Shown: piece by piece, positions 5,844 through 28,040 of the stretch
Layout of the letters: every line of letters starts with the position of its first letter
Numbering within the stretch: position 1 is the stretch's first letter
Made by a program: the position numbers and the translations under genes
IMG/VR virus record: IMGVR_UViG_3300032288_002674
Span: 1-31,403 of that record
From: a virus
Reading direction: 5' to 3' (one strand)
Length of the DNA stretch: 31,403 bases
The notes under the pieces: model-generated
Database searches by the model: none
The model's input: only the letters and a program-made list of their open reading frames with translations
Told to the model about the DNA's origin: nothing

Positions 5844-8378
5844 ATGGCCAGCGTTACAAGGTCTGTTAACTGGGCCCCGGCAAACGGCGATTTCACCGCT
5901 TACGTTGTAAGCGGGCAGTTTATTGGCTGGATTGGAGGAGTTAACCCGTCTGAATTTCAAATTTCTGAATCAGAGAAAGCCTTGTTTCCATCAAATACGG
6001 CAATTCAACAAAAGGTCAATGACCTTTTAAATTTTGTAAGAACAATTTACCCAGCGTTGCCTTCGTCTGCAGATGCTGAGTTTAGAAATGTAATGTATAA
6101 TGAAGTGCTCAATGAGTTTGTTGCCGAGTTAAACCTTCAAATTGAATCGCGTTACGGAAATACACAGGCTTTAATTTTTACACCTGGTTATCCGCCAATT
6201 GCATCAGATAGAGCGTTAACATTTACACAAGGGAATACAGAATTTGTCAGAGGAACTCCAAGAAAATCCTCTATTCAATTTAGAATAACACGCGAACCAT
6301 ACAACGGACTCATTGAAAGTTGGCTTGATAGAGGACTAGCAGATTTAGAAAACGCATTTGTTCCAATCATTGGAAGACCTATAACTGCGTCAGAGATATC
6401 TCAACTACGAACTATACTTGACAGTTTAATTGATGTTGTTTTTTTATGGTTATACCCTATTTCAGATCTAGTTGATTTATATGATTTTACAGAACAAGAC
6501 CTAACACCATCATATGCATTAACGGCTTCTACTAACTCAGTTACTGAAGGAAATCAGTTTACAGTTGATTTTACAACTAATCAAGCAGGCACATTTCCTT
6601 ACCTGATCACTGGAACTGTAAATTCAGCAGATTTAAGCGGTGCGCCAATGTCTGGGTCTTTGGCCAATGGCGATAGATTAACATTCACAGTAGCCGCAGA
6701 CTCTGTCAGCGAAGGCAACGAAACTTTTACAATCAAACTTCGCAACATCGTGCCTGAAGTAAGTGCTACTGTAACTATCACAGACACATCAACAGGTCCA
6801 GCGCCATACTACTACTTTGAACGTTCTACACCCACAGTTTTTGAAGGTGGCATCTTCACTCTGACATTTAGAACCAATCAGTCTGGCTACTTCAACTACC
6901 AACTAAGCGGAGTGCAAAGCAGTGATCTTGTCAGTGGTGCGTTCCTTGGTAGTGTGGCCAACAATGAAGTATTGACATTCAATGTTTCACCAACAGTGGC
7001 ATTTCCAGGAAGTAGTCAAAGCAAAACTTTTAGAATTGACTTGACCAATGGTGCCGCATCATCATCTGTGCAGATTCAAAATAGCCTACTACCATCTGGA
7101 ACACTGATTAGAACGGAATGCCGAGGATTTGACAAGTATGGCATTTACGCTGATGGTCTAGGTGGTGAATACGATCAAATGATTGAGAACAACAGCGCCG
7201 AGTGTGGCTATGTTGGTCCTCCTTCAGTGATTACTATTGTAAGCCGCGGTCAAAAGATTCAAGACGAAGTATTCAATGGTGTATTGTTATCAACTAATGA
7301 GTTGTTTGGTGATACTCATGCAGGTGAGGGCCCAAGTGCTGTGCCGGCTGTGCAGAACAATATTCGTTGGGGCTGGGGCGGCGAAAACATGCCCTTGGTA
7401 GAACGCGGTGAGAAAATCACAGCAGATTTGACCAATGAACTGGTAAACCGAATCAACATCAGCACACTACGCACAGCCAGTTCTGATCAAGAACTTGTTG
7501 TTGTGGCTCGAGGTGAAAAAATCACTGCTGAGTTCCTTAATACTGCATCAACATTGTTGACAGGTGCAAGAGAACTTCGCAACACAGTTGATCCTGCTTT
7601 TACAGAGTTGTCAACACTGGGCACATATCCTTCAGATACCGAATGGCAAAATAAACTGGAAATTGTGTTGGAATATGCCTTTGGAGATTTTGGCACCTAT
7701 GAAAGTGCTAGACACTTTTTCAATGCTGGTGGAGATCTAAGATTTGCACTGGGATTGGCCAATGGTTACGGCAACGGGTATCATACTTGGCGTTGTATTT
7801 TCCAAGACATGGGCACCGTTCGTTTTAACATTGAAACTGCCAACAGTTTGAACACTCGCGGTGTCAGTCAAACTGTAGGATTCAGCGAACTAACCACAGA
7901 AGAACAATTGCTTTATACTAGCCCAAGTGGATCTGGTGGTGGTGGCTATGGTGGTTATGGCGGCTATGGCGGTTACGGAGGCTACGGTGGCTATGGTGGC
8001 TACGGTGGCTACGGTGGCTATTGTGGATACGGTGGCTATGGAGGCTATGGCGGATATGGAGGCTATGGTGGCTATGGTGGCTACGGCGGCTATGGTGGTT
8101 ATGGTGGCTATGGTGGTTATGGTGGCTACGGCGGCTACGGCGGCTATGGTGGTTATGGTGGCTACGCATCAAGCCGAGCCAAACTCTACGGTTACATTGA
8201 CGGAGAAAAACTAATTCTTCGTTGGCTCTTGGACAACAGCGGCCTAAATATTCCTGTGCGCGGTGACCTATCATTGATCACATCCATGGTGCATCCAACC
8301 ACAGTCACAGAAGGTTCAGTGGCTCTATCAATTCCTGAACCATTGGTTAGTATTAAAACCAACTGGCAAGAAATTTAA
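5844..8378 (+). CDS. Virion structural protein with Calx-beta-like repeats and a long Gly-Gly-Tyr tract, 844 aa
   Basis: Starts one base after the upstream stop, with GGAG about ten bases before the ATG. Residues 1-210 are unrecognised. Residues about 225-315 and 320-415 are two related beta-sandwich repeats with the pattern TVTEG..FTVDFTTNQ.G.F.Y.I.G, as in Calx-beta or similar adhesive domains. Three copies of V.RG.KI lie near residues 465, 519 and 554. Bases 7935-8165 encode four Gly followed by about 25 Tyr-Gly-Gly units, one with Gly changed to Cys (TGT at 8022). The last 70 residues return to ordinary composition (LYGYIDGEKLILRWLLDNSG). Such a protein is probably on the virion surface, for example as a fibre or adhesin, with the Gly-Tyr tract as a flexible or sticky linker; this role is inferred. 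Confidence 0.75.
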   Translation: MASVTRSVNWAPANGDFTAYVVSGQFIGWIGGVNPSEFQISESEKALFPSNTAIQQKVNDLLNFVRTIYPALPSSADAEFRNVMYNEVLNEFVAELNLQIESRYGNTQALIFTPGYPPIASDRALTFTQGNTEFVRGTPRKSSIQFRITREPYNGLIESWLDRGLADLENAFVPIIGRPITASEISQLRTILDSLIDVVFLWLYPISDLVDLYDFTEQDLTPSYALTASTNSVTEGNQFTVDFTTNQAGTFPYLITGTVNSADLSGAPMSGSLANGDRLTFTVAADSVSEGNETFTIKLRNIVPEVSATVTITDTSTGPAPYYYFERSTPTVFEGGIFTLTFRTNQSGYFNYQLSGVQSSDLVSGAFLGSVANNEVLTFNVSPTVAFPGSSQSKTFRIDLTNGAASSSVQIQNSLLPSGTLIRTECRGFDKYGIYADGLGGEYDQMIENNSAECGYVGPPSVITIVSRGQKIQDEVFNGVLLSTNELFGDTHAGEGPSAVPAVQNNIRWGWGGENMPLVERGEKITADLTNELVNRINISTLRTASSDQELVVVARGEKITAEFLNTASTLLTGARELRNTVDPAFTELSTLGTYPSDTEWQNKLEIVLEYAFGDFGTYESARHFFNAGGDLRFALGLANGYGNGYHTWRCIFQDMGTVRFNIETANSLNTRGVSQTVGFSELTTEEQLLYTSPSGSGGGGYGGYGGYGGYGGYGGYGGYGGYGGYCGYGGYGGYGGYGGYGGYGGYGGYGGYGGYGGYGGYGGYGGYGGYGGYASSRAKLYGYIDGEKLILRWLLDNSGLNIPVRGDLSLITSMVHPTTVTEGSVALSIPEPLVSIKTNWQEI
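7935..8165 (+). repeat. 9-bp tandem repeat encoding (Gly-Gly-Tyr)n
   Basis: A 231-base tract of the unit GGN GGN TAY lies in frame inside the 844-residue structural gene, with about 25 tyrosines. Codons vary between copies (GGT, GGC, GGA, GGG absent or rare; TAT and TAC mixed). The repeat is therefore kept at protein level and is not a recent pure DNA slippage product. One unit carries TGT (Cys) instead of GGT. Confidence 0.95.
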
Positions 8379-8449: not shown

Positions 8450-8797
8450 ATGGATCAACGACTTAATGATGCCTTGGCGTTTGCTAACTATCGCTTGACG
8501 CTACAGATACAGCGCCAAAACATCATGGCCAGGGTTGAAGCGGCCCTGCTTGTATCACACCAAAATTCAATTTTTCGTGCGTCACCAGAACTCATTGGGT
8601 TTGTTGATGCACACTCCCGCTTGTCCAAAGAACCATTGATTGTCAACGATCAAAGCGACAATGCCATTATAATTGCAAATCCACAGGAATTCATTGAGCA
8701 ATTGATCAAGGCCTACGATTCAGCAATGGTTCTAAAAAATCAAGAACAACAGCGACTAAAGACAGCCAGAAATCCTGCTAAAATTGTGGGGTTGTAA
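8450..8797 (+). CDS. Conserved-type small phage protein, 115 aa, function unknown
   Basis: A 115-residue, mainly helical protein beginning MDQRLNDALAFANYRLTLQI and ending in a charged helix (LKNQEQQRLKTARNPAKIVGL, split here by no obvious domain). The pattern resembles an uncharacterised protein found near the structural genes in T4-like marine phages, recalled from family knowledge and not checked. No signal peptide, membrane segment or catalytic motif is visible. It is the first gene behind the late promoter at 8414, and its stop codon directly abuts the next start. A small assembly or scaffold role is possible but unproven. Confidence 0.65.
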   Translation: MDQRLNDALAFANYRLTLQIQRQNIMARVEAALLVSHQNSIFRASPELIGFVDAHSRLSKEPLIVNDQSDNAIIIANPQEFIEQLIKAYDSAMVLKNQEQQRLKTARNPAKIVGL

Positions 8798-9676
8798 ATG
8801 AGCAGTCGCGGATTCATGATGTTTGCCTACAACAACGAACAGTTGGATTATACCCAATTGGCCATTGTTGCGGCCTACGCAGTTAAAAAATACATGCCCG
8901 GCATGCCAGTGGTGTTGGTCACTAACCAAATGAGCGTGGACCAGTGCCGCGAACGCCACGGCGAAGAAATCATGCGAGCCGCTTGGGACGACATTGTCAT
9001 GACCAATCCTGACTATCAGCAGAACATTCGTCTACATCACGACGGTGCCTACAACAGTTTCAATGCACAGTTTACCAACACCAACAAGCACGATATCTAC
9101 AATCTTTCGCCCTTTGACGAAACCATCCTTATTGACACAGATTACTTGTGTGGCAATGACAATCTAGCCAAACTGTTTGGTGGACAGCACTCGGTGGCCA
9201 TGTATCGAGACGCTATAAATCTACGCTGTGAAGAACCCTATACCACAGAACGTTGGCTACACTATGCAGGTATTCGCATGTGGTGGTCAACTGTGGTCTA
9301 CTGGCGCAAGAGTGAAGAAGCACAACATTTCTTTAACGTTTGGTCCAGTGTAAAACAACACTGGGAATACTATCGTTATCTCTACAAGTTTCCAGGCAGT
9401 CTCTATAGAACTGACTATGCGGCTTCAATTGCCGCACATCTCTGTGATGGCTGGCAAGATGGCGGATTCATTGGCAGGATTCCTTTGCCCATGCGCTATC
9501 AAGACCAGCGTGACGATGTGGTCAAAATCCTAGGCCCCAACCATTGGGTCATGCTCAGCAATTTGCCCGAAGAATGGAAAAACGTTGCAGTGGAAATCCG
9601 CGGCGAAGATGTTCACATGATGAACAAGAAAAGCATCTTACGCAACTATGACACTATCATGGAGCAGTTGGCATGA
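8798..9676 (+). CDS. GT-A-type glycosyltransferase-like protein, 292 aa
   Basis: The N-terminus (GFMMFAYNNEQLDYTQLAIV, then MPVVLVTNQ) has the strand-helix-strand pattern of nucleotide-sugar transferases. Near residue 111 is DETILIDTDYLCGNDN, with DTD as the candidate metal- and sugar-nucleotide-binding DxD motif. Trp- and Tyr-rich segments follow (WLHYAGIRMWWSTVVYWRK), as in acceptor-binding regions. The length of 292 residues is normal for a single-domain GT-A enzyme, and there is no membrane anchor. The gene abuts the one before (TAA directly followed by ATG) and overlaps the next by four bases. A likely role is sugar transfer in the cytoplasm to a lipid, protein or DNA acceptor; donor and acceptor are unknown. 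Confidence 0.6.
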   Translation: MSSRGFMMFAYNNEQLDYTQLAIVAAYAVKKYMPGMPVVLVTNQMSVDQCRERHGEEIMRAAWDDIVMTNPDYQQNIRLHHDGAYNSFNAQFTNTNKHDIYNLSPFDETILIDTDYLCGNDNLAKLFGGQHSVAMYRDAINLRCEEPYTTERWLHYAGIRMWWSTVVYWRKSEEAQHFFNVWSSVKQHWEYYRYLYKFPGSLYRTDYAASIAAHLCDGWQDGGFIGRIPLPMRYQDQRDDVVKILGPNHWVMLSNLPEEWKNVAVEIRGEDVHMMNKKSILRNYDTIMEQLA

Positions 9677-10377
9677 CTGTATATGTTATTGACAATGCCA
9701 ACAATCCAAGATTATTTGATGTCACGCAAGCAGACATCAAATTCCACAATCCGCATCTAGGAGCAGAACGTTTGCCGGCCTACAGTGATCCTGCAGAACA
9801 GTTAAAATGTCTGCAGAATTTGCCACTGGATGCTGGTGATATTATTTGTTTTGCTGGTATTGCTCTCAGACGACATACTTGGCTCATGAAAGACATTGCT
9901 GTAGAACGCAGTTGGAATCTCATGCCGGGTCAGACAGTTGATCATAGACTAGTGCCCATCGAAGCAGGAAAGACTTTTAAGCGGCGACCACAAGACATGA
10001 ACAAACATGTAGGATCACCATATGTAATGATCATTGGCAATCCATTGACAGCCGTAGAGTCTTGGTCAATGATACAGAATTTTGCACCTGAAGATGTTTG
10101 GCCACAATACCTACCAGAACAGCCAACCATACATCATTGGCTCAGTGCCACTGCGGCTTTGTGCCCAGGCTGGTTGACTCCAGATTGGTTTCCAGTTGTT
10201 GACACCAGTGTTAGAGATTTAGAAATTGCACCAGTGATGTATGCCAGCAATCATTGGACAGATTGGATTGCCTTTTATCCAGCCAACGGAAACTTTAAAC
10301 TGGAAAACCACAGCCAACTTTATCCTGTGTGGTTAGACGAAACAGAAAAACCATTGGAGTATTGGCACAATGAGTGA
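9673..10377 (+). CDS. Unrecognised protein, 234 aa
   Basis: A soluble protein of 234 residues without motifs I recognise. The sequence alternates strands and helices (MTVYVIDNANNPRLFDVTQA; DIICFAGIALRRHTWLMKDI), is rich in Trp, Pro and His, and ends in an acidic tail with EYWHNE. It shares ATGA with the gene before and eight bases with the gene after, so it is almost certainly co-translated with the glycosyltransferase-like protein at 8798. GGAG lies about nine bases before the start. It could be a partner of that enzyme, but nothing in the sequence proves it. Confidence 0.55.
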   Translation: MTVYVIDNANNPRLFDVTQADIKFHNPHLGAERLPAYSDPAEQLKCLQNLPLDAGDIICFAGIALRRHTWLMKDIAVERSWNLMPGQTVDHRLVPIEAGKTFKRRPQDMNKHVGSPYVMIIGNPLTAVESWSMIQNFAPEDVWPQYLPEQPTIHHWLSATAALCPGWLTPDWFPVVDTSVRDLEIAPVMYASNHWTDWIAFYPANGNFKLENHSQLYPVWLDETEKPLEYWHNE

Positions 10378-11353
10378 AATTATTGATGATGGCATTCAGT
10401 TTGAACTTAGAAAACGCAAGAAAACTGGCCAAGACTTTTGGACAATTTACTATAACACCACCAACGGAACCATTTTAAACATTGAACCAGGTCAAATGCA
10501 ATCTCCAGAAACCCTGGTAATCAGTTATGTTAGAGTTAAAAAAATTCTGTCAGGTCAGGAAAATCAAAACAACTATCGCATAGACTACAATGAAAAACTT
10601 GGAGCACTAGATTTAATTGATCTTAGAAAACCTCAGGAATACAAAAAGAAAAAGCAAAATTGGCAAGTTTGGCTTAGCCAATCAGAATTCAGCGGAGATG
10701 CGTTTGCAGATCTACGAGCCACCCTGTTCCAAGAAAATGGAATGCTACGCATTGAAGCCAGTAGAGATTGGGGACAACAAACCAAAGAAAATCCCAACAG
10801 ACTCAAAGACTTTGAGATTTACTTGTCAGACGTTGAAGATCCTCATCTGGTGTTTGGCTTTAACAATATTCCTACTCAAGAAATCATTGAAAAGGGATTT
10901 TGGGAGTGTAGACTTTGGAGTTTTATGGATCACGGTCTAGTGCAAAATATCTTGTATCACAATCAAAACATCAGACTAAATCTTCCCCCTGTTGCTCGAT
11001 CAGTTTCATTTAAAAGATCCAAACAATACTTTCCTTTCAGCGGTATCATTGATGATCAGACACTCATGAGTCATCCAGGGCCTGGACAACACATCAGCAT
11101 TTTTGTTAAAAACAACTCTGTCTGGGCGCAGAGTCATTATGAAAAAGGTTCAAGTCTTGACAACATAATTGGAAACCTTCGTGCAGGACTGATCTGGCGC
11201 GACGACCCAGATAACTTTCTTGGTTGGGTTGAGTTTCCTGCTTTGATGTTGAGACAACCTCAACCATTTGAATTGATCAGTGATTGGAACGATCCACACC
11301 CACCAAATCTATTATATAAAGCAAACAACATAGACATTGGAGTCTTACAATGA
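10370..11353 (+). CDS. Unrecognised protein, 327 aa
   Basis: A 327-residue soluble protein, Lys- and Asp-rich in its first half (FELRKRKKTGQDFWTIYYN) and beta-rich overall, with no signal peptide, membrane segment or known catalytic motif. It contains a basic patch near residue 88 (PQEYKKKKQNW) and a Pro/His-rich C-terminus. It overlaps the gene upstream by eight bases and shares ATGA with the first of three DxD-type paralogues downstream. GGAG is present before the start. Its place inside the operon suggests a role with the sugar-transfer genes or with the virion, but neither is supported by motifs. Confidence 0.55.
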   Translation: MSEIIDDGIQFELRKRKKTGQDFWTIYYNTTNGTILNIEPGQMQSPETLVISYVRVKKILSGQENQNNYRIDYNEKLGALDLIDLRKPQEYKKKKQNWQVWLSQSEFSGDAFADLRATLFQENGMLRIEASRDWGQQTKENPNRLKDFEIYLSDVEDPHLVFGFNNIPTQEIIEKGFWECRLWSFMDHGLVQNILYHNQNIRLNLPPVARSVSFKRSKQYFPFSGIIDDQTLMSHPGPGQHISIFVKNNSVWAQSHYEKGSSLDNIIGNLRAGLIWRDDPDNFLGWVEFPALMLRQPQPFELISDWNDPHPPNLLYKANNIDIGVLQ

Positions 11354-12321
11354 AAACCCCTATCAGTGAATTTGATGTAGTGTTCATCAGTTACGATGAA
11401 CCTAATGCCGACGAGAACTGGGCAGACTTATTAGAGAAGTGCCCGTGGGCCAAACGCAGTCATGGCGTGTTTGGTAGTGATGCTTGCCATAAAGCCGCTG
11501 CCAAAATGGCAGAAACAGAACGATTTATCAGCATTGATGCTGACAACAAAGTGCGTCCTGACTTTTTTGAATTAGAACTTGATTTACACAAGTTTGATCG
11601 CAGTGATGTATTGTCTTGGTCAGGTAAAAATGTCATCAATGGCCTAGTCTACGGCAACGGCGGTGTTAAACTTTGGCCCAAGAAAGTTGTAGAGCAAATG
11701 AGAACACACGAAGCAGTGGATTCAGGCGCCGGTGCTGTTGATTTTTGTTGGGATATTCACTATCATCAACTCAACAACATCTACAGCGATGTCTACAATA
11801 ACTCAACACCATACCAGGCCTATCGTGCAGGATTTCGTGAAGGGGTGAAACTTGCACTACACGACGGTCGTCCAATGGATTGGCGCCAAATCAAAGACAA
11901 GAATCACTACAAGAATCATCGTAGACTCTTGGTGTGGATGAGTGTTGGTGCCGACGTTGACAATGGTCTTTGGGCCATGTATGGTGCTAGATTGGGCTGT
12001 TATCTAACCAACCTACATCGCGGCTGGGACTATACCCTAGTCAGAGATTTTGAATGGCACACTCAGTATTGGAACGAAGATGTAGCACCAAGATTTGCCG
12101 GCGGCAATGAACGTTGTGTGCGTAGCAATTACACCTGGGACAGAGAAAAACTTCAATCAGAAATTGTCAAACTTGGTCGCGCACTCAGACAAGATCTAGG
12201 ACTTGACATTGCCGAACTTGACGACGCCGGCAGCAAGTTTTTTAAAGCCAGTTACTTTAATCCTCATAGACTTGGTCCACTAGTCAAAGAATCTGATGTT
12301 GAACAGTTTATTCTGGAATGA
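11350..12321 (+). CDS. Glycosyltransferase-like paralogue 1 of 3 (DEPNAD family), 323 aa
   Basis: The protein opens with a beta strand and FISYDEPNADENW (residues 13-24), then SDACHKAA (44-50) and the strand FISIDADNKV (59-68) with DAD as a candidate DxD metal site. Further conserved blocks are NGLVYGNGGVKLW, MRTHEA, VDFCWD, PYQAYRAGFREGVKL and WAMYGARLG. These blocks recur in the next two genes. The order of motifs fits a GT-A-like nucleotide-sugar-binding fold; similar proteins occur in T4-like marine phages, recalled and not checked. GGAG lies eight bases before the ATG, which overlaps the previous stop. Substrate is unknown. Confidence 0.6.
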   Translation: MKTPISEFDVVFISYDEPNADENWADLLEKCPWAKRSHGVFGSDACHKAAAKMAETERFISIDADNKVRPDFFELELDLHKFDRSDVLSWSGKNVINGLVYGNGGVKLWPKKVVEQMRTHEAVDSGAGAVDFCWDIHYHQLNNIYSDVYNNSTPYQAYRAGFREGVKLALHDGRPMDWRQIKDKNHYKNHRRLLVWMSVGADVDNGLWAMYGARLGCYLTNLHRGWDYTLVRDFEWHTQYWNEDVAPRFAGGNERCVRSNYTWDREKLQSEIVKLGRALRQDLGLDIAELDDAGSKFFKASYFNPHRLGPLVKESDVEQFILE

Positions 12322-12324
12322 TCA

Positions 12325-13200
12325 ATGCTAGATGTCTTTTTTATTTCCATAGGTGAGGCCAATGCCGAAGATAACTGGAAAAAGTTAACACAGTTACGGC
12401 CAGATGCCAAGCGTGTGCAAGACGTCAAAGGCATCTATGAAGTTCATAAGACTTGTGCAAAAATCAGCACCACAGAAAATTTTTGGGTAGTTGATGCGGA
12501 TGCTTGGGTTCTCAATGACTTTGATTTTGCTTGGGAGCCAGATACCAATGTTCGTCACTGGAACGTGCCTGAACCCGAGTGTGTGTTAATTTGGCGCAGT
12601 CGCAATCCAGTCAACGACCTTGAATACGGATACGGCGGAGTCAAAATGTTTCCAAGACAACCGTTTATGGAAGATCGTGCCTGGCACATTGATCTATCAA
12701 CAACCATTGGATCTGTCACAGTAATCAAAGATCAACTCAGTTGTGAAACGCGATTCAATGCCACGCCTGAAAGTGCTTGGATTGGTGGATTTAGAGAGTG
12801 TGCTAAACTAGCATCATTGACTTCGGTGTGCGGTCGTATTCAACGTAAAAATTACAGCATGATGGAAGAATTAGAAGAACTAGAACGTTACATTGCCACG
12901 CAAGACTGGACAGCAGAACAACGCACAGCCTATCGCAAAGGTAAAAAGGCTGTTATCATTGACAGTTACAAATACGAAACAAACATCTACAATTACTTTG
13001 GCGACATAGAAACAGCCGCTGATCGTTATAGTGCTTGGTCACGTTACGGTTGGCATAGATACAACGGGCAGTATGCAGTATTAGGTGCTCAAGCAGGAGT
13101 CAAGTATGGATTAAAGAATGCCAGCAACCTGCAGGCAATGAACCAAATCAATGATTGGAATTGGTTACGACAGGAGTTCAAAAAACATGTCAATGTTTAA
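12325..13200 (+). CDS. Glycosyltransferase-like paralogue 2 of 3, most diverged, 291 aa
   Basis: The motif order matches its two neighbours but the residues have drifted: ISIGEANAEDNWKKL replaces SYDEPNADENW, GIYEVHKTCAK replaces SDACHKAAAK, and FWVVDADAWV keeps the DAD motif. LEYGYGGVKMF matches the YGNGG block, and WIGGFRECAKLAS matches GFREGVKL. A charged helix (MMEELEELERYIATQD) is inserted in the middle. The start at 12325 lies three bases after the previous stop. The divergence suggests a changed acceptor or donor rather than decay, because the frame is intact and the DAD motif is kept. Function is inferred from the family resemblance only. Confidence 0.6.
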   Translation: MLDVFFISIGEANAEDNWKKLTQLRPDAKRVQDVKGIYEVHKTCAKISTTENFWVVDADAWVLNDFDFAWEPDTNVRHWNVPEPECVLIWRSRNPVNDLEYGYGGVKMFPRQPFMEDRAWHIDLSTTIGSVTVIKDQLSCETRFNATPESAWIGGFRECAKLASLTSVCGRIQRKNYSMMEELEELERYIATQDWTAEQRTAYRKGKKAVIIDSYKYETNIYNYFGDIETAADRYSAWSRYGWHRYNGQYAVLGAQAGVKYGLKNASNLQAMNQINDWNWLRQEFKKHVNV

Positions 13201-14164
13201 AGTTAAACCAACTGCTCAGAGTTTCAAACCCAGCAATAGAATGATTCGAGACATCCCTGTGGTGTTTTTAAGTTTTGATGAGCCCAACGCAGATCATCAC
13301 TGGGAATTGTTGCAAAAAGTAGTGCCACATTCCAACATTGCCCGAGTGCATGGAGTCAAAGGATTTGATGCCTGCCACAAAGCCGCTGGCAATGCATTTC
13401 CTTGGAGCGACTATGTTATCACTGTAGACGCTGACAATCAAATTGATCCTGAGTTCTTTAACAAAACTGCGCCACAGCAGATCACGTTAGGCATGACTTT
13501 TACCTGGGGCGGCCGCCAATTTACCAATGGCTTGATGTATGGCAACGGTGGACTCAAAATGTGGAATCGAGATCACTTGTTGAACATGCGTAGTCACGAA
13601 GCATCTGACAACGAAAGAGATGCTGTTGACTTTTGCTGGGACTTTCAACAATACAAAGAAGTTCCAGGTTGTTATTCAACTGTTTATACCAACGGCAGTC
13701 CTTATCAAGCATTTCGTGTGGGCTTCAGAGAAGGTGTAAAATTGTCAATGGAACAAGGACAGGTCATTGATCCGGAACGAATCAGCAAAGACATGCATGC
13801 CGCTAACTTTCAACGATTGCTGACTTGGATGACTGTGGGTCGAGATGTAGAACACGGTGCCTGGAGCATGTATGGCGCCAGACTAGCGGCCAAGATGTTG
13901 TATTTTGATGATTTTGATTTTACTTTGATCAGAGATTACGATTGGTTCATTGACTTTTTTGAACAACACAAAAACAAAGAAATTATCACTGAACTTACCA
14001 CACTGAGTGTAAAATTGCAAGACGTGTATGGATTCAGACTTCCTGGGTTTACCGCTGATGAAAGTCGCATGCTCAAAATGCTACAACTGCATCCTGAAAA
14101 ACCTTTGACCTATGAAGATGTGCGTTGGAGAACCAACTTGGGCATGTTTGGATGGTTCAAATGA
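13187..14164 (+). CDS. Glycosyltransferase-like paralogue 3 of 3, 325 aa
   Basis: Close to paralogue 1: FLSFDEPNADHHW, GFDACHKAAG, ITVDADNQI with DAD, NGLMYGNGGLKMW, MRSHEA, VDFCWD, PYQAFRVGFREGVKL, WSMYGARLA. It has about 20 extra N-terminal residues before the conserved core. An in-frame ATG at 13151 would overlap the gene before by 50 bases; ATG at 13187 has AGGAG about ten bases upstream and gives a 14-base overlap, so I chose it. The stop TGA shares bases with the next start. Probably the result of tandem duplication with paralogue 1. Confidence 0.6.
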   Translation: MSMFKVKPTAQSFKPSNRMIRDIPVVFLSFDEPNADHHWELLQKVVPHSNIARVHGVKGFDACHKAAGNAFPWSDYVITVDADNQIDPEFFNKTAPQQITLGMTFTWGGRQFTNGLMYGNGGLKMWNRDHLLNMRSHEASDNERDAVDFCWDFQQYKEVPGCYSTVYTNGSPYQAFRVGFREGVKLSMEQGQVIDPERISKDMHAANFQRLLTWMTVGRDVEHGAWSMYGARLAAKMLYFDDFDFTLIRDYDWFIDFFEQHKNKEIITELTTLSVKLQDVYGFRLPGFTADESRMLKMLQLHPEKPLTYEDVRWRTNLGMFGWFK

Positions 14165-15387
14165 CAGAAGAACAAATCTTAGAAGCCAAGATTGCCATCC
14201 TCTATTTCATTGAAGAAGCCTGCGGCTATCGTCACAGTCTGCATTGGCTTAGACGCTGGATGGAAAGTGGTCAACAAAGCGACCTAGAACATCTCATTAT
14301 TGAAATTGGTCGAGAAAATTTCTACGACTTCAAGCGGTTAATTCAAGCAACGCAGGGCGACAATGATGCTCGTTGGGAGATGATGTCAATTTTGACTCAA
14401 CGTGGTATCATAGTTCCTGATGAATGGAAGCCAGTGCGCGAAGAAGAAGGCTCGTTACTAGAGCAGGATATAGTGTTGACCTCAGCACCAGAAGCAATGA
14501 TTCACAGTATGCAGTTTGGTGAGCAGGATTTTAATACTGCTATCGGCAACACATGGAACGTGTTTAATTGGATTCAAGAAAACAAAAAAAATTATCCTGA
14601 ACTAGATCCCATTGGGATCTTGGCCTATGCGATGGAAAAACTTTACAACAGTCAAAGCAATGTCTATGAAGTGTGTTACTTTATTAGAATGCTGTTGGGC
14701 AAAGGCACACTGATAGAAAATACCATCAATGAAGACCTAGAACTTTTTGCCAAAAACGTTGGCAATTATTTTGCTGACCAAGAATGGGTAACCAAAAATC
14801 TCATGTTGGCTATTCAAAATGGTCCAGAAGAAAACTGGAAGGATGCGCTCAGTAGAAACCAAGTTAAAAGTAAAATTTGGTTGCTGGACAAACTCGAAAG
14901 CACTGGCTGGTTTACACAAAAGCCAACAGTGACCAAAGAAAATCCCACAATGGTTTTGGTTGGGGGTTGGGTTGGATTACTGCCTTTTATTGCGGCAGTT
15001 CGCAATCAAAAACTAGGTGCAGTGATCAATGTTGACATAGACGAATCAACACATTTGCCAGCCAAGGTTTTAAATGGTCAGCACTACACTGAATTTAGAA
15101 ATCTAGCCAAAGACATAAGAACACTTGACTTCAACAAGTTTAAAAACTTTGTCATAGTTGACACCATTGTTGAACATTTTGAAAATCATGCAGAATGGAT
15201 ACAAAGTCTGCCCGCAGGAACCAAACTTATATTGCAAGGCAACGACATGTTTGATGTGCCAGACCATGTAAACTGTCATCATAACTTGGATGAGTTTGTT
15301 GACACCTGCGGCCTAGCCAAAGTTATTTGGCAAGGTGAACTTACTTTGCCAGGTTGCACAAGATTTATGGTAATTGGCACAACATGA
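14161..15387 (+). CDS. Two-part protein with methyltransferase-like C-terminal domain, 408 aa
   Basis: The first 250 residues are helical and acidic, without recognised domain. From about residue 270 the chain has a Rossmann-like pattern: MVLVGGWVGLLPFIAAVR as a glycine-rich first strand and helix, AVINVDIDES as the second strand with acidic residues for a cofactor ribose, then FVIVDTIVEHF and a last strand CTRFMVIG. This resembles class I S-adenosylmethionine methyltransferases, although the first motif is GGWVG rather than the usual GxGxG. The ATG at 14161 overlaps the previous stop; an earlier in-frame ATG at 14125 would overlap 40 bases and has no advantage. A similar architecture is known to me only as uncharacterised phage proteins. 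Confidence 0.5.
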   Translation: MTEEQILEAKIAILYFIEEACGYRHSLHWLRRWMESGQQSDLEHLIIEIGRENFYDFKRLIQATQGDNDARWEMMSILTQRGIIVPDEWKPVREEEGSLLEQDIVLTSAPEAMIHSMQFGEQDFNTAIGNTWNVFNWIQENKKNYPELDPIGILAYAMEKLYNSQSNVYEVCYFIRMLLGKGTLIENTINEDLELFAKNVGNYFADQEWVTKNLMLAIQNGPEENWKDALSRNQVKSKIWLLDKLESTGWFTQKPTVTKENPTMVLVGGWVGLLPFIAAVRNQKLGAVINVDIDESTHLPAKVLNGQHYTEFRNLAKDIRTLDFNKFKNFVIVDTIVEHFENHAEWIQSLPAGTKLILQGNDMFDVPDHVNCHHNLDEFVDTCGLAKVIWQGELTLPGCTRFMVIGTT

Positions 15388-15902
15388 GCAAATTAAGATA
15401 TTATAGAACAGATGCCAAAATAGATCTAGAACGTCTGCTGGTAGAAGCCAATGCCTTGGCCTGGGACGATACAATCAAGCAGTATCGTCCTCAAACTGCT
15501 GTGCAAAATGCCGACGGCAACGAAGACTACCTCGAAGGCACAGGATCAAAACCTGGTCAAACAGACGACAAGTGGGCCAATCTACGAAGCGATTTATCAA
15601 ACACTTGGTGGGAAACATTTTTTGCCAGTTTGCCTTGGCGTGTGTATAGAACCAGAATCATGATAATGCCGCCGCGTAGTTGCTACAGCATACACAGCGA
15701 TACCAGCCCCAGGTTGCACATTGCGTTAAAAACGCATCCGCAGGCCAAGTTCATTTTTACCAATCCACCAGAACTAGTTCATGTTCCTGCTGACGGATAT
15801 GTTTGGTGGGTTGATACTCGTGAGGAGCACACAGCCATCAATGCCAGTCTGGAACCACGTTGGCACCTGCTATTAAGCCTGGTAAACACACCAGACCATT
15901 AA
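15384..15902 (+). CDS. Iron/2-oxoglutarate oxygenase-like protein (aspartyl/asparaginyl hydroxylase type), 172 aa
   Basis: Residues 100-170 give a cupin-like core: CYSIHSDTSPRLHIAL with H104 and D106 as candidate iron ligands, a Pro-rich turn, YVWWVDTREEHTAIN with H149 as the third ligand, and PRWHLLLSLV with R159 as the candidate 2-oxoglutarate anchor. This H-x-D...H...R order is that of the aspartyl/asparaginyl beta-hydroxylase superfamily. The ATG at 15384 overlaps the previous stop by four bases; an in-frame ATG at 15354 is less likely. Substrate could be a peptide, a lipid or a small molecule made by the same cassette. Confidence 0.6.
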   Translation: MSKLRYYRTDAKIDLERLLVEANALAWDDTIKQYRPQTAVQNADGNEDYLEGTGSKPGQTDDKWANLRSDLSNTWWETFFASLPWRVYRTRIMIMPPRSCYSIHSDTSPRLHIALKTHPQAKFIFTNPPELVHVPADGYVWWVDTREEHTAINASLEPRWHLLLSLVNTPDH

Positions 15903-15918
15903 ACGGCTACATAATGAC

Positions 15919-16563
15919 ATGTCACTATATGTAGAAATTTCCAATGCTGAAACCTTTGATCGCCATTTACCGGCCTACGAAACCTTTTTGCGTCGAATTG
16001 CCACTGAATCCGGAGAAGAAAACAAAGTATTGGTCAACATGGGTTGGGAACCACCCAGTGGTCTATTGTATCTGATTCAACCAGAGCGAGATCGATATCG
16101 TCGATGGACACAAGGACAGGGCGAAATTGCATTGCTCTACGATAAACTCACTGGCGGTATTGTTGGCATCAGCGCAGTAGAGCATAGTCCACTCAGCGAC
16201 AACATCAGTTCAGGTGGAAATCGTTGCTGGCTACAACGCGAATATAGACTCAACAACGAAGTTTCAAAACATCTGTTGGCCAGCAACTTTGTTTGGACAC
16301 AACGACAAAACAAAATTGGCATGATGCTGACATTCAATCAGTATAACAAAGGCATCTACGACATTATTGTTCATAGAACACAAGGTAAAAAGGTCTCCAT
16401 TGGCAAAGTATGGAGCAATTGGTGGGACGACTGTGTGCCTATACAAAAGAAAATTTTATTACACAATGTTCCACAGTGGGCAGTTATAAAACCCAATGCA
16501 GACCGGAGTATGATCCACGACGAGGTCCAAGAACTAACAGAACTATATGGTGTTGACGAATGA
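15919..16563 (+). CDS. Possible GNAT-type acyltransferase, 214 aa
   Basis: The central part (GEIALLYDKLTGGIVGISAV, later FVWTQRQNKIGMMLTF) has the strand order and turn of GNAT N-acyltransferases, but I cannot point to a clear acetyl-CoA-binding Q/RxxGxG/A loop, so the call is tentative. The C-terminal 60 residues contain SNWWDDCVPIQ and an acidic helix. It is separated from the oxygenase-like gene by 16 bases without a clear Shine-Dalgarno, and shares four bases with the PP-loop gene that follows. The position between these two suggests the three act in one pathway. Confidence 0.4.
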   Translation: MSLYVEISNAETFDRHLPAYETFLRRIATESGEENKVLVNMGWEPPSGLLYLIQPERDRYRRWTQGQGEIALLYDKLTGGIVGISAVEHSPLSDNISSGGNRCWLQREYRLNNEVSKHLLASNFVWTQRQNKIGMMLTFNQYNKGIYDIIVHRTQGKKVSIGKVWSNWWDDCVPIQKKILLHNVPQWAVIKPNADRSMIHDEVQELTELYGVDE

Positions 16564-17510
16564 TACAAAACACACTTAACAATCATTTGACTTATTGGTA
16601 TAATGATGATGAAAACCAACGTTGGCGCAAAGACCCCAACGACTATACATCAATGCGTGTTGGTGGCTGTAGCAGAGCACCCTTTTCTGCAAAAATTGAA
16701 TGGACTAGAATTGCACGGCTACTGATTGATCAATATCCTGATCTCACAATTTTTATGAGCGGCGGCCTTGACAGTGAAATTGCACTTCGCTGTTTTTTGG
16801 CCGCAGGCATTAAACCAAAACTTGCAACCATACGTTTCCCTAATGATAAGAATGCTTATGATATTGCTCCCATGATTGATATGGTCCAGCGAGAATGGGG
16901 GTTAGATGTTTCTGTCATTGACTTTGATCCTGAAGAGTTTTGCCTGAGCGGAGAGTATCTAGCAATTGCCGAAAAGTATCAGGCCTATACATTTTACCAA
17001 CAGATTTTGCTCAAGGTTGCCGAAGACTATTCTGCGCCAATGATCACTGTTGATGAAGTTGAGTTGGAAAAACTGCCAGCAGTCAACTACGACACTGGCG
17101 AGGTCATGTGGCATTGGACATTTTTAAAGAAAGAAGACCAAGACGGTGTCTGGAGAAGATTTGCTGACAAAACAGGAATACCAGCGTTGAACAATTTTTA
17201 TACCTACACACCAGAAAGCATGTTGGCATTCCTTAGGCTACCTACCACAGCCGCCCTGATTCGAGATCAGATCCCGTTCAAGTTGAGTTGGACTAGTAGC
17301 AAAATGAAAATTTATTCAGAGGCCGGGTTTAAATTTAGAATGCGACCCAAATGGCACGGAATGGAAAACTACATGCACTTGTGGGACTTTGTGAAGTCAA
17401 ACCAACCCACTAGTCTATTAGGATATGGCCCTCAATCTTATACAATTCCAGCACTGGAGTTGGAAGAAAATTTAGCAAAAGGAAGAATCAGCCAATGCAG
17501 TATTCTATAA
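16560..17510 (+). CDS. PP-loop ATPase, asparagine-synthase-like without glutaminase domain, 316 aa
   Basis: The strand LTIFMSGGLDSEIALRCFL (residues 62-80) holds the PP-loop SGGLDSE that binds pyrophosphate in ATP pyrophosphatases such as asparagine synthetase B, NAD synthetase and tRNA modification enzymes. A second strand follows (KLATIRFP), as does an acidic segment (WGLDVSVIDFDPEEF). The chain has only about 60 residues before the loop, so there is no N-terminal Cys glutaminase domain and ammonia or an amine must come from elsewhere. The enzyme probably adenylates a carboxyl group. It overlaps both neighbours. The acceptor is unknown. Confidence 0.65.
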   Translation: MIQNTLNNHLTYWYNDDENQRWRKDPNDYTSMRVGGCSRAPFSAKIEWTRIARLLIDQYPDLTIFMSGGLDSEIALRCFLAAGIKPKLATIRFPNDKNAYDIAPMIDMVQREWGLDVSVIDFDPEEFCLSGEYLAIAEKYQAYTFYQQILLKVAEDYSAPMITVDEVELEKLPAVNYDTGEVMWHWTFLKKEDQDGVWRRFADKTGIPALNNFYTYTPESMLAFLRLPTTAALIRDQIPFKLSWTSSKMKIYSEAGFKFRMRPKWHGMENYMHLWDFVKSNQPTSLLGYGPQSYTIPALELEENLAKGRISQCSIL

Positions 17511-18142
17511 AACCATTAGATCACGACCAAATTGGCGCGGTAACCAAACTAGCCAATGAAATTTATAACGGACTAGATGAAGACAAGTATCCTGACTTTA
17601 GAGTAGGCTACGATATCAATGCTGAAGAAAATCGAGAAAAATATTTTACTATGTTCATGCTTCCTTCGCACTTTGTTGGCTTTAATCAGCGAAGAGCCTA
17701 TGGCGTGTTTGACGATAATGATAGGTTAATTTCAGCCGTTGGTGTTAGGCGCTACGATCATTTTCCATGCTGGAGTCTAAGTTGGTTGTTGAGTCCAAAG
17801 ATTGGTGCTAGGTTTATTCCATTGTTTAGATTCATCGTTGACGAACTTTGCAAAATACATGAAACCGCAGGATTCAATGAATTGTTGGTCACTTATCCCA
17901 GTTCCAGAGAAGAAGCCTACAGTAGAATCATGTTGTTCATGCGTGAACGTTATTTTACATTTGTAGAAACCACTATTCCTGCAAAAACAGTCAGTGCTTT
18001 TGGATTTATTCACGAACTGTCTGGAAAAACGTTACACCCGCACGATATCAATCTGAGAAGATACATACTGCGTAGAGAAGATATGACCCCCGCTAGTGAA
18101 GGCGGACAAGCAAAAAGAAAAATAAAACAAGACAATGATTGA
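17495..18142 (+). CDS. Possible GNAT-type acyltransferase, 215 aa
   Basis: The N-terminus MQYSIKPLDHDQIGAVTKLA and the strands RAYGVFDDNDRLISAVGVRR then SLSWLLSPKIG follow the GNAT pattern of two to three antiparallel strands after two helices. FNELLVTYPSSREEAY and FMRERYFTFVETTIP could be the later helix and strand. A canonical cofactor loop is not obvious. The tail is Lys-rich. GGAAG precedes the ATG, and the gene overlaps the PP-loop gene by 16 bases and the desaturase by eight. If the call is right, it would transfer an acyl group to an amine or hydroxyl, but it could be a different fold. Confidence 0.4.
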   Translation: MQYSIKPLDHDQIGAVTKLANEIYNGLDEDKYPDFRVGYDINAEENREKYFTMFMLPSHFVGFNQRRAYGVFDDNDRLISAVGVRRYDHFPCWSLSWLLSPKIGARFIPLFRFIVDELCKIHETAGFNELLVTYPSSREEAYSRIMLFMRERYFTFVETTIPAKTVSAFGFIHELSGKTLHPHDINLRRYILRREDMTPASEGGQAKRKIKQDND

Positions 18143-19046
18143 TACTACTGTAAAAACCTGGTTTGCTGACCAGTGGGATTTATATGCCAAAACTCGGCAA
18201 ATTCCTTACATTGTTGCACTATGGCTTCCATATCATATTCTTGGCATTGGTGCTATTTTATTTGCATTGGCCACTGAATGGAGTTGGTGGTATCCAGTAT
18301 GGGCTGTTTGCGGCTGGATTCTGCTGGACGGCGTAGGCAACAACCTAACACTACACAGATTCCTAAGTCACCGCAGTTGGGAACCCCGCAAGTGGATGGA
18401 ACCTTTTTTACTTTGGGCGGCAACAATGACTGCCGAGGGCTCACCAATTTGGTGGGCGGCACTACATCGCGGTCATCACCATAGAGTCAGCGATCAAGAA
18501 GGCAAAGATATCCACACACCTGTGGGCAATGGATGGTGGCACAGTTACATGGGTTGGCAGTTTAGCATCAAGCAAGACTCAGTGAGTTTCCGCCATGCAG
18601 TAGATCTATTGCGTGATCGTAGGCTGGTGTTTATTCACGAAAACTACAACAAGATCATCTACGGAACTTTGCTGTTGAGTTGGTTGCTGTTTGGTTTGAC
18701 TTTTACCATTTGGTTCTTTATTGTTGGCGCACTGATGAGTCTACACGCTGACGGATTGGTAAACACATTTGGACATGTGCCTGGTGCTGGTTACAAGAAC
18801 TTTGAAAACCGTGATGCCAGCACCAATGTATGGTGGATTGGTTATTTTCATTGGGGCTCAGGTTGGCACAACAACCATCACAGAGAGCCCAGCAGTTTTG
18901 ATTTTGGTTCAACAGTCAGTGGTAGAAAGTTTGAGTTTGATCCTTGTTTCTTGATAGTATGGCCATTTGCTTCTACAACGGAATTAAAGAGGTTGTGGAG
19001 CAATCGTAAAAATGCTATACTCAAGAGACAAGGAACATCAGCATGA
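18135..19046 (+). CDS. Membrane fatty acid desaturase (delta-9 acyl type), 303 aa
   Basis: All three histidine boxes of membrane di-iron desaturases are present: HRFLSH (residues 74-79), HRGHHH (111-116) and HNNHH (245-249), with an extra HADGLVNTFGH at 204-214. Hydrophobic stretches near residues 25-47, 50-66, 88-105 and 175-203 are the expected membrane passes. The length of 303 residues fits bacterial acyl-lipid or acyl-CoA desaturases. The enzyme introduces a double bond into a fatty acyl chain at the cytoplasmic membrane, using oxygen and electrons from a host carrier. Phage copies of this family are known in marine phages. It shares four bases with thyX and follows the possible acyltransferase, so it is late-expressed. 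Confidence 0.85.
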   Translation: MIDTTVKTWFADQWDLYAKTRQIPYIVALWLPYHILGIGAILFALATEWSWWYPVWAVCGWILLDGVGNNLTLHRFLSHRSWEPRKWMEPFLLWAATMTAEGSPIWWAALHRGHHHRVSDQEGKDIHTPVGNGWWHSYMGWQFSIKQDSVSFRHAVDLLRDRRLVFIHENYNKIIYGTLLLSWLLFGLTFTIWFFIVGALMSLHADGLVNTFGHVPGAGYKNFENRDASTNVWWIGYFHWGSGWHNNHHREPSSFDFGSTVSGRKFEFDPCFLIVWPFASTTELKRLWSNRKNAILKRQGTSA

Positions 19047-19924
19047 CTTTACGAACAGAGATTGATTTTGAGCAAGACAAAACTTACCTTCCAGTCCTGG
19101 ATCACGGATTTGTTGGTTTAGTTGATCACATGGGATCTGATGCGGCTATCGTGCAGGCCGCTAGAGTCAGTTATGGAGCCGGCACCAAACAAGTGCAGGA
19201 TGACCGTAACCTAATTCGTTATCTAATGCGGCACGAGCATACTACGCCATTCGAAATGTGCGAAGTCAAGTTTCACCTCAAGTTACCCATCTTTGTGATG
19301 CGACAACTTGTTAGACACAGGACAGCCAGCCTAAATGAATATTCCGCTAGATATTCTGTTATCACAGATGAATTCTACATACCTGATGCCAAAAACCTCA
19401 AGCCGCAGAGTTCAACCAATAAGCAGGGTCGAGAAGGAGAACTCGACAGTATCGCATCAAACCACACCATCTACGATATGCGACAAGCATGGGATAGTAA
19501 CTACGAACTCTATGAACGCTTTATCAACGACTTTGGCCTGGCGAGAGAAACTGCTAGACAGATCTTACCGGTGGGTGGATACACCGAGTGTTATTGGAAA
19601 GCAAATCTAAAGAACTTTCTGCATATGGCACGACTTCGTATGGATAGTCATGCACAATGGGAGATACAAGAATTTGCCAGAGCCATGTATGCATTGGCTC
19701 AACCATTGTTTCCTGAAGCCTGTCAAGCATTTGAAGATTATCAACAAAATGCTGTCAAATTCAGCGTTCAAGACCTAGCATTACTCAAACGTATAATCAA
19801 CAGAGAACGTTGGTTTGATTTGGAACAAGATTTTCGTGACGACAAAGGCATCGCCAAATCTTTTGGCATGAGTCAGCGAGAAGTCGTTGAGTTCAAACGA
19901 AAGTTAAACTTGGATGCTCTATAA
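19043..19924 (+). CDS. thyX: Flavin-dependent thymidylate synthase ThyX
   Basis: The signature RHRTASLNEYSARY at residues 91-104 matches the ThyX motif RHRx(7)S with the Asn-Glu and Arg-Tyr that follow. The segment IVQAARVSYG at the start and HTTPFEMCEVKF before the signature are also typical. ThyX makes dTMP from dUMP using FAD, NADPH and methylenetetrahydrofolate, in the cytoplasm, and supplies thymidine nucleotides for phage replication. The length of 293 residues is a little above many bacterial forms. It begins within the desaturase stop codon (ATGA) and overlaps the oxygenase-like gene that follows by eleven bases. A replication gene in a late-promoter operon is unusual. Confidence 0.93.
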   Translation: MTLRTEIDFEQDKTYLPVLDHGFVGLVDHMGSDAAIVQAARVSYGAGTKQVQDDRNLIRYLMRHEHTTPFEMCEVKFHLKLPIFVMRQLVRHRTASLNEYSARYSVITDEFYIPDAKNLKPQSSTNKQGREGELDSIASNHTIYDMRQAWDSNYELYERFINDFGLARETARQILPVGGYTECYWKANLKNFLHMARLRMDSHAQWEIQEFARAMYALAQPLFPEACQAFEDYQQNAVKFSVQDLALLKRIINRERWFDLEQDFRDDKGIAKSFGMSQREVVEFKRKLNLDAL

Positions 19925-20795
19925 GATCAGCGATCAACCTTTTTTGAGATTTGACCAGCATCTAGATATTCCTGGATTGCTGGATCTCAAAGAAGAACTT
20001 TGTCATGCTTTCACTGAGGCTTGGTTAGGGCTTGGCAAAGGAAACCAAGCATTGCCATCAGTGGCAGGCCATCCAGCCAATTGGCCAAATAGCAACAACA
20101 ATGTTGAGGAAGTGTATCTTCCTTACTATGAGGGACAGGAACTGGCAGGAGCACTACATCAGACTCTCAAAGACCAGTCTGCTCCCGGGCATGCTCGTGT
20201 TAAATCTTTTGTAGAAAATGGTCACCCCAGTTACGCATACATGTTTTTAAAATTGTTGGGCAATAATCAAGGCATTGGCTATCAAATGTTTATCAGACAG
20301 CCAACAACCAGCAATTATGCAGAAAAGCATCTTGCAGACAAAACCAAAGATTCATTGTATTATGACAGGTTTATTTTTTTCCTAGATTGGGTTAAAAAGC
20401 AAAAAATATTTTCTGAGATTGGTCGCGTGGTCGTCTTCTTCAATGACCAACATCAGTTTTGCCTAGTGCATAGAGATCACAATCAATTCAATGTAGTAGA
20501 AAATCCTGATGAGTTTGTTTGGTTCAATGTATTTCCGGATCGCAAACGTTTTTATGTGCTAGATGGTGAAACCGGAGAAAAGCACTACTTTGACAACCAT
20601 GCAATTTGGTTTGACACAGCAAACTGGCACGGCAGTGATCCTTGTGCGTTTGCGGCATTTACAATTCGTGTTGACGGAGTCTTTACCAAGACTTGGCGTA
20701 AGAAGATTGGATACAAACCAAAGGTCACAGAAGAAAAGAAGGTTCCTAAGAAACCTTCTAAGTCTAACAACATGTGGAGCCAGGCTAAGGATTAA
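19914..20795 (+). CDS. Iron/2-oxoglutarate oxygenase-like protein, 293 aa
   Basis: Residues 171-255 form a candidate cupin core: VVVFFNDQHQFCLVHRDHN with H186 and D188 as metal ligands, FVWFNVFPDRKRFYVLD as core strands, IWFDTANWHGSDP with H239 as third ligand, and FTIRVDGVF with R252 as possible 2-oxoglutarate anchor. This is the same motif order as in the proteins at 15384 and 22524 (minus strand). The first 170 residues are specific to this gene. The last 35 residues are Lys/Pro-rich and may be disordered. The ATG overlaps thyX. Last gene of the plus operon; its 3' end overlaps the convergent minus gene by eleven bases. Confidence 0.55.
   Translation: MLYKISDQPFLRFDQHLDIPGLLDLKEELCHAFTEAWLGLGKGNQALPSVAGHPANWPNSNNNVEEVYLPYYEGQELAGALHQTLKDQSAPGHARVKSFVENGHPSYAYMFLKLLGNNQGIGYQMFIRQPTTSNYAEKHLADKTKDSLYYDRFIFFLDWVKKQKIFSEIGRVVVFFNDQHQFCLVHRDHNQFNVVENPDEFVWFNVFPDRKRFYVLDGETGEKHYFDNHAIWFDTANWHGSDPCAFAAFTIRVDGVFTKTWRKKIGYKPKVTEEKKVPKKPSKSNNMWSQAKD
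20731..20758 (-). terminator. Possible terminator of the minus-strand operon
   Basis: GAAGGTT (20738-20744) and AACCTTC (20752-20758) can pair around a seven-base loop. On the minus strand the stem is followed by TTTTCTT, a weak U-rich run. It lies just past the stop of the minus gene ending at 20785, inside the coding sequence of the convergent plus gene. Support is moderate. Confidence 0.35.
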
Positions 20796-26482: not shown

Positions 26483-27685
26483 TTACCTACGATTGGCAGG
26501 CACATAATTGGCAGTAATGCCAAACGGTGCAGTGATATCTCTGCTACCATGCACAACAAACAGGGTATCGCAGTAGTCTGGGTCACCCCAACTACCACAA
26601 GGATAGCCGTCTGTGAACATCACCAACTGGTGCGGATGGACTTCATTGTCCTTCATCCACTGCCATACACATTCAAATGCAGTTCCACCACCGCCTTGGA
26701 TATTGTATTCGCCCATGTCACGACCATCATCGCTGGTGAATTCGTCTTCGTTGTAGACACTGGTATCAAAGGTAATGATACGAACCTTGTAAGACGTAAA
26801 CTGATCCAGAGAGCCTTGCACCATACCCAAGAAGTCTGACAGCATGTCCTCGCCAATAGATCCAGAAGCGTCTAATGCAACAACAATGTCAAGTTCCTCG
26901 CCAGGCAGTTGACCGGGCAGGACTGCACCAGTATGCCAGGCCTTACGATTGGGACGCATCCAGGTGTAGTCGCTCTTGAGCGAACCACTGAACTGAATAC
27001 GAAGCAGATCCTTCAAGTCCATTACAGGTGCAGTAATGTCTTTGACCAAACGCTGGATATCGCCTGGCACATTGCCAGCACCTGCATTCTTTGCGGCCTG
27101 AAGCACAGCCTCACGCCATTCGTCACGCAAGGCCTTCTTTTCCTCTTCAGTCAAAGGCTTCATCTTAGGACGACCCTTGCCATCCTTGCTGTCATCTTCG
27201 CCCTCACCCTCACCGTCACCGTCACCATCAGGGTCCATGTGCATGTCCAGGGTCATCTTAATTTCTACAGCATTGGACATGAGTTCGTCATAGACTTCGT
27301 CTGCAGTCTTGCCAGTGTATTTAGAGTCCAACAAGATTGGCACCGCTTGAATAGCACGGCCAATGCCTTCGCGAACCAACATGCCATTGATCACATAGTC
27401 GCCAGCCATGTTCCAGACCTGCGGATTACGATCACCGCGACGTGACATGTGATCAAAAATAATGTGACCAAGTTCGTGACCAAAACCAAAAATTAGTTCT
27501 TGCTCGTCAAGTTTTTGGATGAAGTCGGGATTGTAGTAAAAAGACCTGCCGTCAGTGGCCAATGTAGGACACCAATCGCATTCTTCCAGTTTGAGTCGGG
27601 CGGCCAAAGGACCCCAAAAAGGATACTTCAGTAGCATAGCGACACGAGTCTTAATCAACTTATCGCGGGCGGACATCTTTGACAT
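26483..27685 (-). CDS. VWA-like protein with N-terminal HExxH metallopeptidase-like domain, 400 aa
   Basis: Residues 66-80 hold GFGHELGHIIFDHM, a zinc-peptidase HExxH motif with a third His. Residues 100-200 contain an acidic Asp/Gly/Glu linker (near 151-165). The C-terminal part is a von Willebrand factor A-like domain: LDASGS (271-276) as the DxSxS metal site, T335 in GGGGTAF, and D359 in MFTDG. This arrangement matches the paired metallopeptidase/VWA-like families (DUF2201 type) that sit next to MoxR ATPases. ATG at 27685 has AGGAG and follows a consensus promoter; the frame is open to 27865, but that would cross the promoter. Likely works with the AAA+ protein encoded at 28041. Confidence 0.8.
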   Translation of the reverse strand: MSKMSARDKLIKTRVAMLLKYPFWGPLAARLKLEECDWCPTLATDGRSFYYNPDFIQKLDEQELIFGFGHELGHIIFDHMSRRGDRNPQVWNMAGDYVINGMLVREGIGRAIQAVPILLDSKYTGKTADEVYDELMSNAVEIKMTLDMHMDPDGDGDGEGEGEDDSKDGKGRPKMKPLTEEEKKALRDEWREAVLQAAKNAGAGNVPGDIQRLVKDITAPVMDLKDLLRIQFSGSLKSDYTWMRPNRKAWHTGAVLPGQLPGEELDIVVALDASGSIGEDMLSDFLGMVQGSLDQFTSYKVRIITFDTSVYNEDEFTSDDGRDMGEYNIQGGGGTAFECVWQWMKDNEVHPHQLVMFTDGYPCGSWGDPDYCDTLFVVHGSRDITAPFGITANYVPANRR

Positions 27686-27716
27686 GGTGGCTCCTATGTT
27701 TTCAGCGTATGTATCT

Positions 27717-27745
27717 ATTATAGTGCAATTTTGGACTAAGGTCAA
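27717..27745 (-). promoter_or_regulatory. Sigma70-type promoter, TTGACC-17 bp-TATAAT
   Basis: On the minus strand TTGACC (27740-27745), a 17-base spacer and TATAAT (27717-27722) lead to a leader of about 25 bases with AGGAG before the ATG at 27685. The elements overlap no gene except that they sit directly after the stop of the 95-residue gene at 27751, so the VWA gene can be expressed separately from the ATPase. Confidence 0.85.
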
Positions 27746-27750
27746 CCATT

Positions 27751-28038: not shown

Positions 28039-28040
28039 AC

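Follow-up and report, generated by a model that had tools for sequence, protein, structure and literature searches.

A near-fixed block of five genes in a 31.4-kb IMG/VR virus record (IMGVR_UViG_3300032288_002674, positions 1 to 31,403; 31,403 nt, hereafter the window) lies directly 3' of a tail-fibre-like gene and ends in G1, the first of three adjacent genes of one family, G1, G2 and G3, which we call the DEPNAD family. Glycosylation of a virion protein is the single most likely role of this block (probability roughly 0.45), and the acceptor is one that we infer. A virion target is favoured because the block adjoins the tail-fibre-like gene, its order hardly changes between phages, G1 and the GT8-like gene GT8a are extremely conserved, the GT8-like profile matches glycogenin, and (GGY)6 repeats are linked to the block. 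G1, G2 and G3 are the only family members in the window, and all of them lie on the same strand. The genes concerned are as follows.

5844..8378, + strand: putative tail-fibre-like protein, 844 aa, named from its position and a Gly-rich repeat; no Pfam match.
7938-8165: Gly-Tyr (GGY) repeat with 25 Tyr, inside the tail-fibre-like gene, read from the sequence.
8450..8797, + strand: 115-aa protein that opens the conserved block; found by iterated profile in 125 loci; no Pfam match.
8798..9676, + strand: GT8a, GT8-like glycosyltransferase with a DTD motif, from its profile match to glycogenin and its conservation.
9673..10377, + strand: GT8b, a second, more diverged GT8-like gene, assigned from where it lies and from its profile homology to genes of other phages, and weak when taken alone; no Pfam match.
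10370..11353, + strand: beta-rich protein as read from the sequence, directly before G1; found by iterated profile in 153 loci.
11350..12321, + strand: G1, predicted GT-A glycosyltransferase, type A, DAD at residues 63-65; from AlphaFold2, Foldseek and a clade median identity of 84.8%.
12325..13200, + strand: G2, predicted GT-A glycosyltransferase, type B, DAD at residues 57-59; from AlphaFold2, Foldseek and its place in the type B clade.
13187..14164, + strand: G3, predicted GT-A glycosyltransferase, type A, in an old clade apart from G1; from start conservation, the tree and a Pfam hit in an orthologue.
14161..15387, + strand: putative class I methyltransferase-like protein, read from the sequence, with no Pfam hit; a common partner of G2-type genes.

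G1, G2 and G3 are very probably GT-A glycosyltransferases, GT2-like as judged from sequence and model. The AlphaFold2 models were confident, with a predicted local distance difference score (pLDDT) of 85.7 and a predicted template modelling score (pTM) of 0.86 for G1, and 93.9 and 0.87 for G2. Foldseek searches of the PDB with G1 returned mainly GT-A enzymes, including RmlT, TarP, TarS and BcsA, and those with G2 returned TarS, SunS/ThuS, WrtF, hyaluronan synthase, GalNAc-T1 and B4GALNT1; a few nucleotidyltransferases of related fold were also among the matches. The best E values were about 1e-4 for G1 and 1e-3 for G2, with high probability, and since the TM-scores were only about 0.3, we claim the fold class alone. 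In sequence searches, G1 alone had no match in Pfam, PHROGs, NCBIfam or PDB sequences, and the family as a whole had no convincing model in PHROGs, NCBIfam or Pfam. PF00535 (Glycos_transf_2), with a curated cut-off of 23.3 bits, passed in the G3 orthologue of locus L014 at 28.2 bits, was weak and below the cut-off in G3 of the window, was weak in other relatives, and had no match in G1 and G2 of the window.

In a 47-sequence alignment, E17, H47, D63, D65, N97, Y101, G102, G104, K107, D131, R163, E164 and K167 (G1 numbering) were invariant. These columns (E, H, DxD, N, YGxG, K, D and FRE) span type A and type B, showing that the middle gene G2 keeps the same core; in a type B set of 38 rows, the second Asp of the DxD was invariant and the first nearly so. 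The family resembles GT2 enzymes such as TarP/TarS, SunS/ThuS and PF00535 members in its predicted fold, its DxD after the central strand and its top Foldseek matches, but it differs from them in being too remote for a PDB sequence search, in its own blocks DEPNAD, YGNGG and GFREGVKL, and in a long C-terminal helical part. The confident models, the GT-A matches, the PF00535 hit in the orthologue and the bacterial homologues next to GT1/GT2 genes support the first-pass annotation, which had proposed a glycosyltransferase-like family with a DxD and a GT-A fold to be checked.

The homology of the three genes is also clear. By BLASTP, G1 and G3 share 44% identity over 243 aa (E 5e-71), G1 and G2 36% over 169 aa (E 1e-23), and G2 and G3 27% (E 5e-11), similarities far above chance. 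The blocks DEPNAD, CHKAA, DADN, YGNGG, VDFCWD and GFREGVKL appear in this order in both G1 and G3. In G2 the corresponding blocks read EANAED, VHKTC, DADA, YGYGG, a block lacking VDFCWD, and GFRECAKL. The two outer genes are thus closer to each other than to the middle one, which keeps its DAD and has changed the other blocks, just as had been noticed at first sight. A reading of G2 as a decayed copy was rejected, since a large subfamily has these altered blocks as its normal sequence and conserves the residues of G2. The listed open reading frame of G3 starts at 13151; its relatives conserve M-S-[MLI]-F at 13187 (MSMF... in the window), and many of them have a stop codon just 5' of it. The start at 13151 was therefore rejected in favour of 13187, which makes G2 and G3 overlap by 14 bp.

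The first-pass annotation had explained the three genes by tandem triplication with one diverged copy, and the tree contradicts this. Its deepest split (support 100) puts type B (G2) opposite type A (G1 and G3). Within type A, G1 falls among the G1 genes of other phages (support 100/99), and G3 with G3 of phages L189 and L191 (support 100/99). A constraint forcing a local duplication of G1 and G3 was rejected by the approximately unbiased (AU) test (p = 4.4e-6); an earlier, weaker test, in which one row stood for G1, had given p 0.117. The three genes are hence not each other's closest relatives, and a recent tandem triplication was rejected. G1, G2 and G3 represent ancient separate subfamilies with orthologues in other phages. 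One scan returned 80 loci from the phage group of the window; nearly all of those that are long enough have the order G1-G2-G3, and G3 went undetected in L009, L050 and L055. Six large contigs of this group (75 to 285 kb) have three family members each, no more and no fewer, along with a gp23 capsid gene of the T4 type.

A wider search found the family in at least 600 viral stretches and in 17 loci in bacterial genomes, the latter mostly Bdellovibrionota metagenome-assembled genomes (MAGs), with further cases in Photorhabdus and in Rhodobacter, Rickettsiales and Neomarinimicrobiota MAGs; Streptomyces and Rhodobacter plasmids carry members too. The homologues adjoin GT1/GT2 genes in Streptomyces plasmids and putative GT1/GT2 genes, as read from the sequence, in Photorhabdus. 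In a Bdellovibrionia protein the family domain appears fused to a putative GT2-like domain. In Bdellovibrionota, too, family members occur together with radical SAM and methyltransferase-like genes, and methyltransferase-like homologues adjoin type B genes in both phages and Bdellovibrionota. Several unusual architectures were seen. Two Bdellovibrionota fusions combine a type B domain with GT2-like domains (L180:5932-9663:+, 1244 aa) or with radical SAM (L183:4747-6708:+, 654 aa), and a homologue on a plasmid of Rhodobacter sp. CZR27 (L188:7980-8906:+) is embedded in a gene cluster for type VI secretion. Giant phage proteins of 686-1365 aa (L194:3102-6173:+, L195:3719-7813:- and L142:3374-5431:+) carry many degenerate DxD...GGxxLxP half-domain repeats before a C-terminal type B domain, and three type B proteins (L134:4879-5916:+, L144:2677-4005:+ and L157:4906-5988:+) have an N-terminal degenerate copy seemingly without a DxD.

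The five-gene order, 115-aa protein/GT8a/GT8b/beta-rich protein/G1, was tracked by iterated profiles. It was kept in 120 loci, a count in which some loci overlap, share a contig or come from near-identical phages and so are not independent lineages, with five departures among the other loci that have both the 115-aa and GT8a genes. The beta-rich gene was undetected in L135, L136, L146 and L169 (the last a Bdellovibrionales MAG locus) and split in L014. Downstream there are usually radical SAM genes, a gene of type B and the methyltransferase-like gene. The first-pass annotation had placed the three genes in a phage operon, which is supported, the operon also holding other transferases. A tblastn search of 50,697 cultured-phage records, from which very near relatives of the window were possibly left out, gave no match for G1, G3, a distant type B relative, GT8a (two versions) or one radical SAM protein.

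Median identities among the six large contigs were 87.1% for gp23, 84.8% for G1 and 82.2% for GT8a, so that G1 and GT8a come close to the capsid protein in conservation. The medians were 61.5% for G3, 61.3% for the PP-loop gene, 55.7% for the 115-aa protein, 55.5% for G2, 53.0% for the hydroxylase, 52.4% for the beta-rich protein, 45.6% for GT8b and 41.7% for the methyltransferase-like protein. That G1 and GT8a keep pace with the capsid protein suggests that the acceptor is encoded by the phage and stays constant, and is not a host surface that varies. An initially proposed surface-diversifying function thus does not suit G1 well; G2, G3 and the later operon genes do diversify.

A profile built from the GT8a and GT8b alignment matched only glycogenin-1 and glycogenin-2 among PDB sequences (E 3.6e-6 to 7e-5), in the N-terminal, donor-binding half that contains the DxD. 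GT8a as a single sequence had no PDB-sequence match, the GT8-like genes had no GT8 hit in Pfam, and hhalign found no significant match between the GT8-like and type B profiles. Glycogenin is a tyrosine glucosyltransferase. The match covers about half of the GT8-like protein.

We propose that in a large T4-like phage G1, G2 and G3, as separate GT-A, GT2-like enzymes, would act in one glycan pathway. GT8a would start a glycan on a virion protein, most likely the adjacent tail-fibre-like product, and G1 would then add a conserved sugar. G2, G3 and the downstream genes (methyltransferase-like, hydroxylase, acetyltransferase-like, PP-loop and radical SAM) may extend or decorate it. Stepwise addition of different sugars by the three putative enzymes, which had been suggested at first, is possible. 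To our knowledge, there are few systems in which glycosylation of phage virions is known.

The Gly-Tyr repeat of the tail-fibre-like gene leads to a more specific version of virion-protein glycosylation. It recurs in the same tail gene in most loci of the clade, GY/YSG variants occur in several other phages carrying the block, and near-identical phages differ in the number of GGY copies (L005 has 22 Tyr, L006 17 and L007 18). In scans of IMG/VR made without reference to the block, it lay just downstream in 56 of the 60 (GGY)6 loci with enough flank. In this version, a glycogenin-like enzyme would glycosylate Tyr of these repeats and DEPNAD enzymes would extend the chain, in a system widespread among aquatic T4-like phages and, as far as the searches went, unseen in cultured ones; we consider it rather unlikely in this exact form. 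The link between Tyr repeats and block is a lead, not proof.

Several points weigh against virion-protein glycosylation or this version of it. Most of the (GGY)n loci belong to a single clade of phages and do not count as independent cases. The block was downstream of only 11 of the 50 (GY)7 loci with enough flank and absent from the other 39, and the distant block-bearing phages L130-L168 have no Tyr repeats; the repeats are thus not the sole acceptor. In phage adhesins, repeats rich in Gly can have a structural role only, as in the polyglycine domain of gp38 (PMC12892980, citing Dunne 2018). The T2-type gp38 adhesin is likewise a T4-like tail-fibre protein with Gly-rich repeats; the window differs in its strict GGY repeat of variable length beside glycosyltransferases, a comparison by repeat type alone. 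Glycogenin is over-represented among solved GT8 structures. The low TM-scores also leave the subclass and donor of the predicted enzymes unnameable, and catalysis, donor sugars, order of steps and acceptor are all inferred.

The main rival is that the block alters the host surface polysaccharide (lipopolysaccharide or its O-chain) during infection and so excludes competing phages, which seems doubtful to us yet better placed than other alternatives. For the host-recognition islands of pelagimyophages, PMC7029224 reports glycosyltransferases (mostly GT8) beside tail fibres and proposes that they modify the O-chain, with the same exclusion of competitors. The bacterial homologues sit in loci that resemble surface-glycan or export clusters as read from the sequence, and the downstream G2, G3 and tailoring genes diversify. 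Against this, G1 and GT8a show near-capsid conservation in an order hardly changing across phages, whereas serotype-conversion genes track host variation, and no GtrA/GtrB-type membrane partner was recognised. A Gtr serotype-conversion system was rejected: by hydropathy, no membrane-spanning stretch was found in G1-G3, GT8a, GT8b or the beta-rich protein, the other operon genes being covered by Pfam only. Cassettes of glycosyltransferases and radical SAM genes beside tail fibres are described for aquatic T4-like phages (PMC7029224, PMC12619734), and moraphages have four core glycosyltransferase orthogroups (PMC12619734). The pelagimyophage/cyanomyophage host-recognition cluster and the moraphage genes resemble the window in this placement, and the available portions of their descriptions do not mention the five-gene order or the DEPNAD family.

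It is improbable that the G proteins are structural or sugar-binding virion parts without catalysis. The block lies inside the tail region, and related phages carry degenerate copies without a DxD and DxD-to-YGYGGVKLFP half-domain repeats (L134, L144, L142, L194 and L195), but throughout the family G1, G2 and G3 have kept their DxD and the remaining invariant residues, which favours retained catalysis in these copies. Least probable is glycosylation of phage DNA (hypermodified bases) against restriction, as by the T4 alpha/beta-glucosyltransferases: phage-encoded glycosyltransferases often act on DNA (PMC12619734), and the operon holds a ThyX gene and 2-oxoglutarate (2OG)-type hydroxylases, some read from the sequence, but bacterial homologues, both chromosomal and plasmid-borne, have genes for cell glycans as neighbours, the six large contigs contain no member of the ThyA/dCMP-hydroxymethylase family (the control worked), and the block is tied to tail genes rather than replication genes.

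Further along the window, the operon holds an unusual tailoring set, with genes for a member of the Asp/Asn hydroxylase family, PP-loop, acetyltransferase-like, fatty acid desaturase and ThyX proteins at 15354-20795 and later a radical SAM gene at 30352-31230. A MoxR-type AAA ATPase adjoins a DUF2201 metallopeptidase/VWA protein at 26483-29144. A scan for promoters and terminators gave no informative excess.

Many uncultured phages from aquatic settings keep this block in near-fixed order next to their tail genes, with two of its enzymes almost as conserved as the capsid protein, and this points to a general, undescribed modification of the virion or the host.

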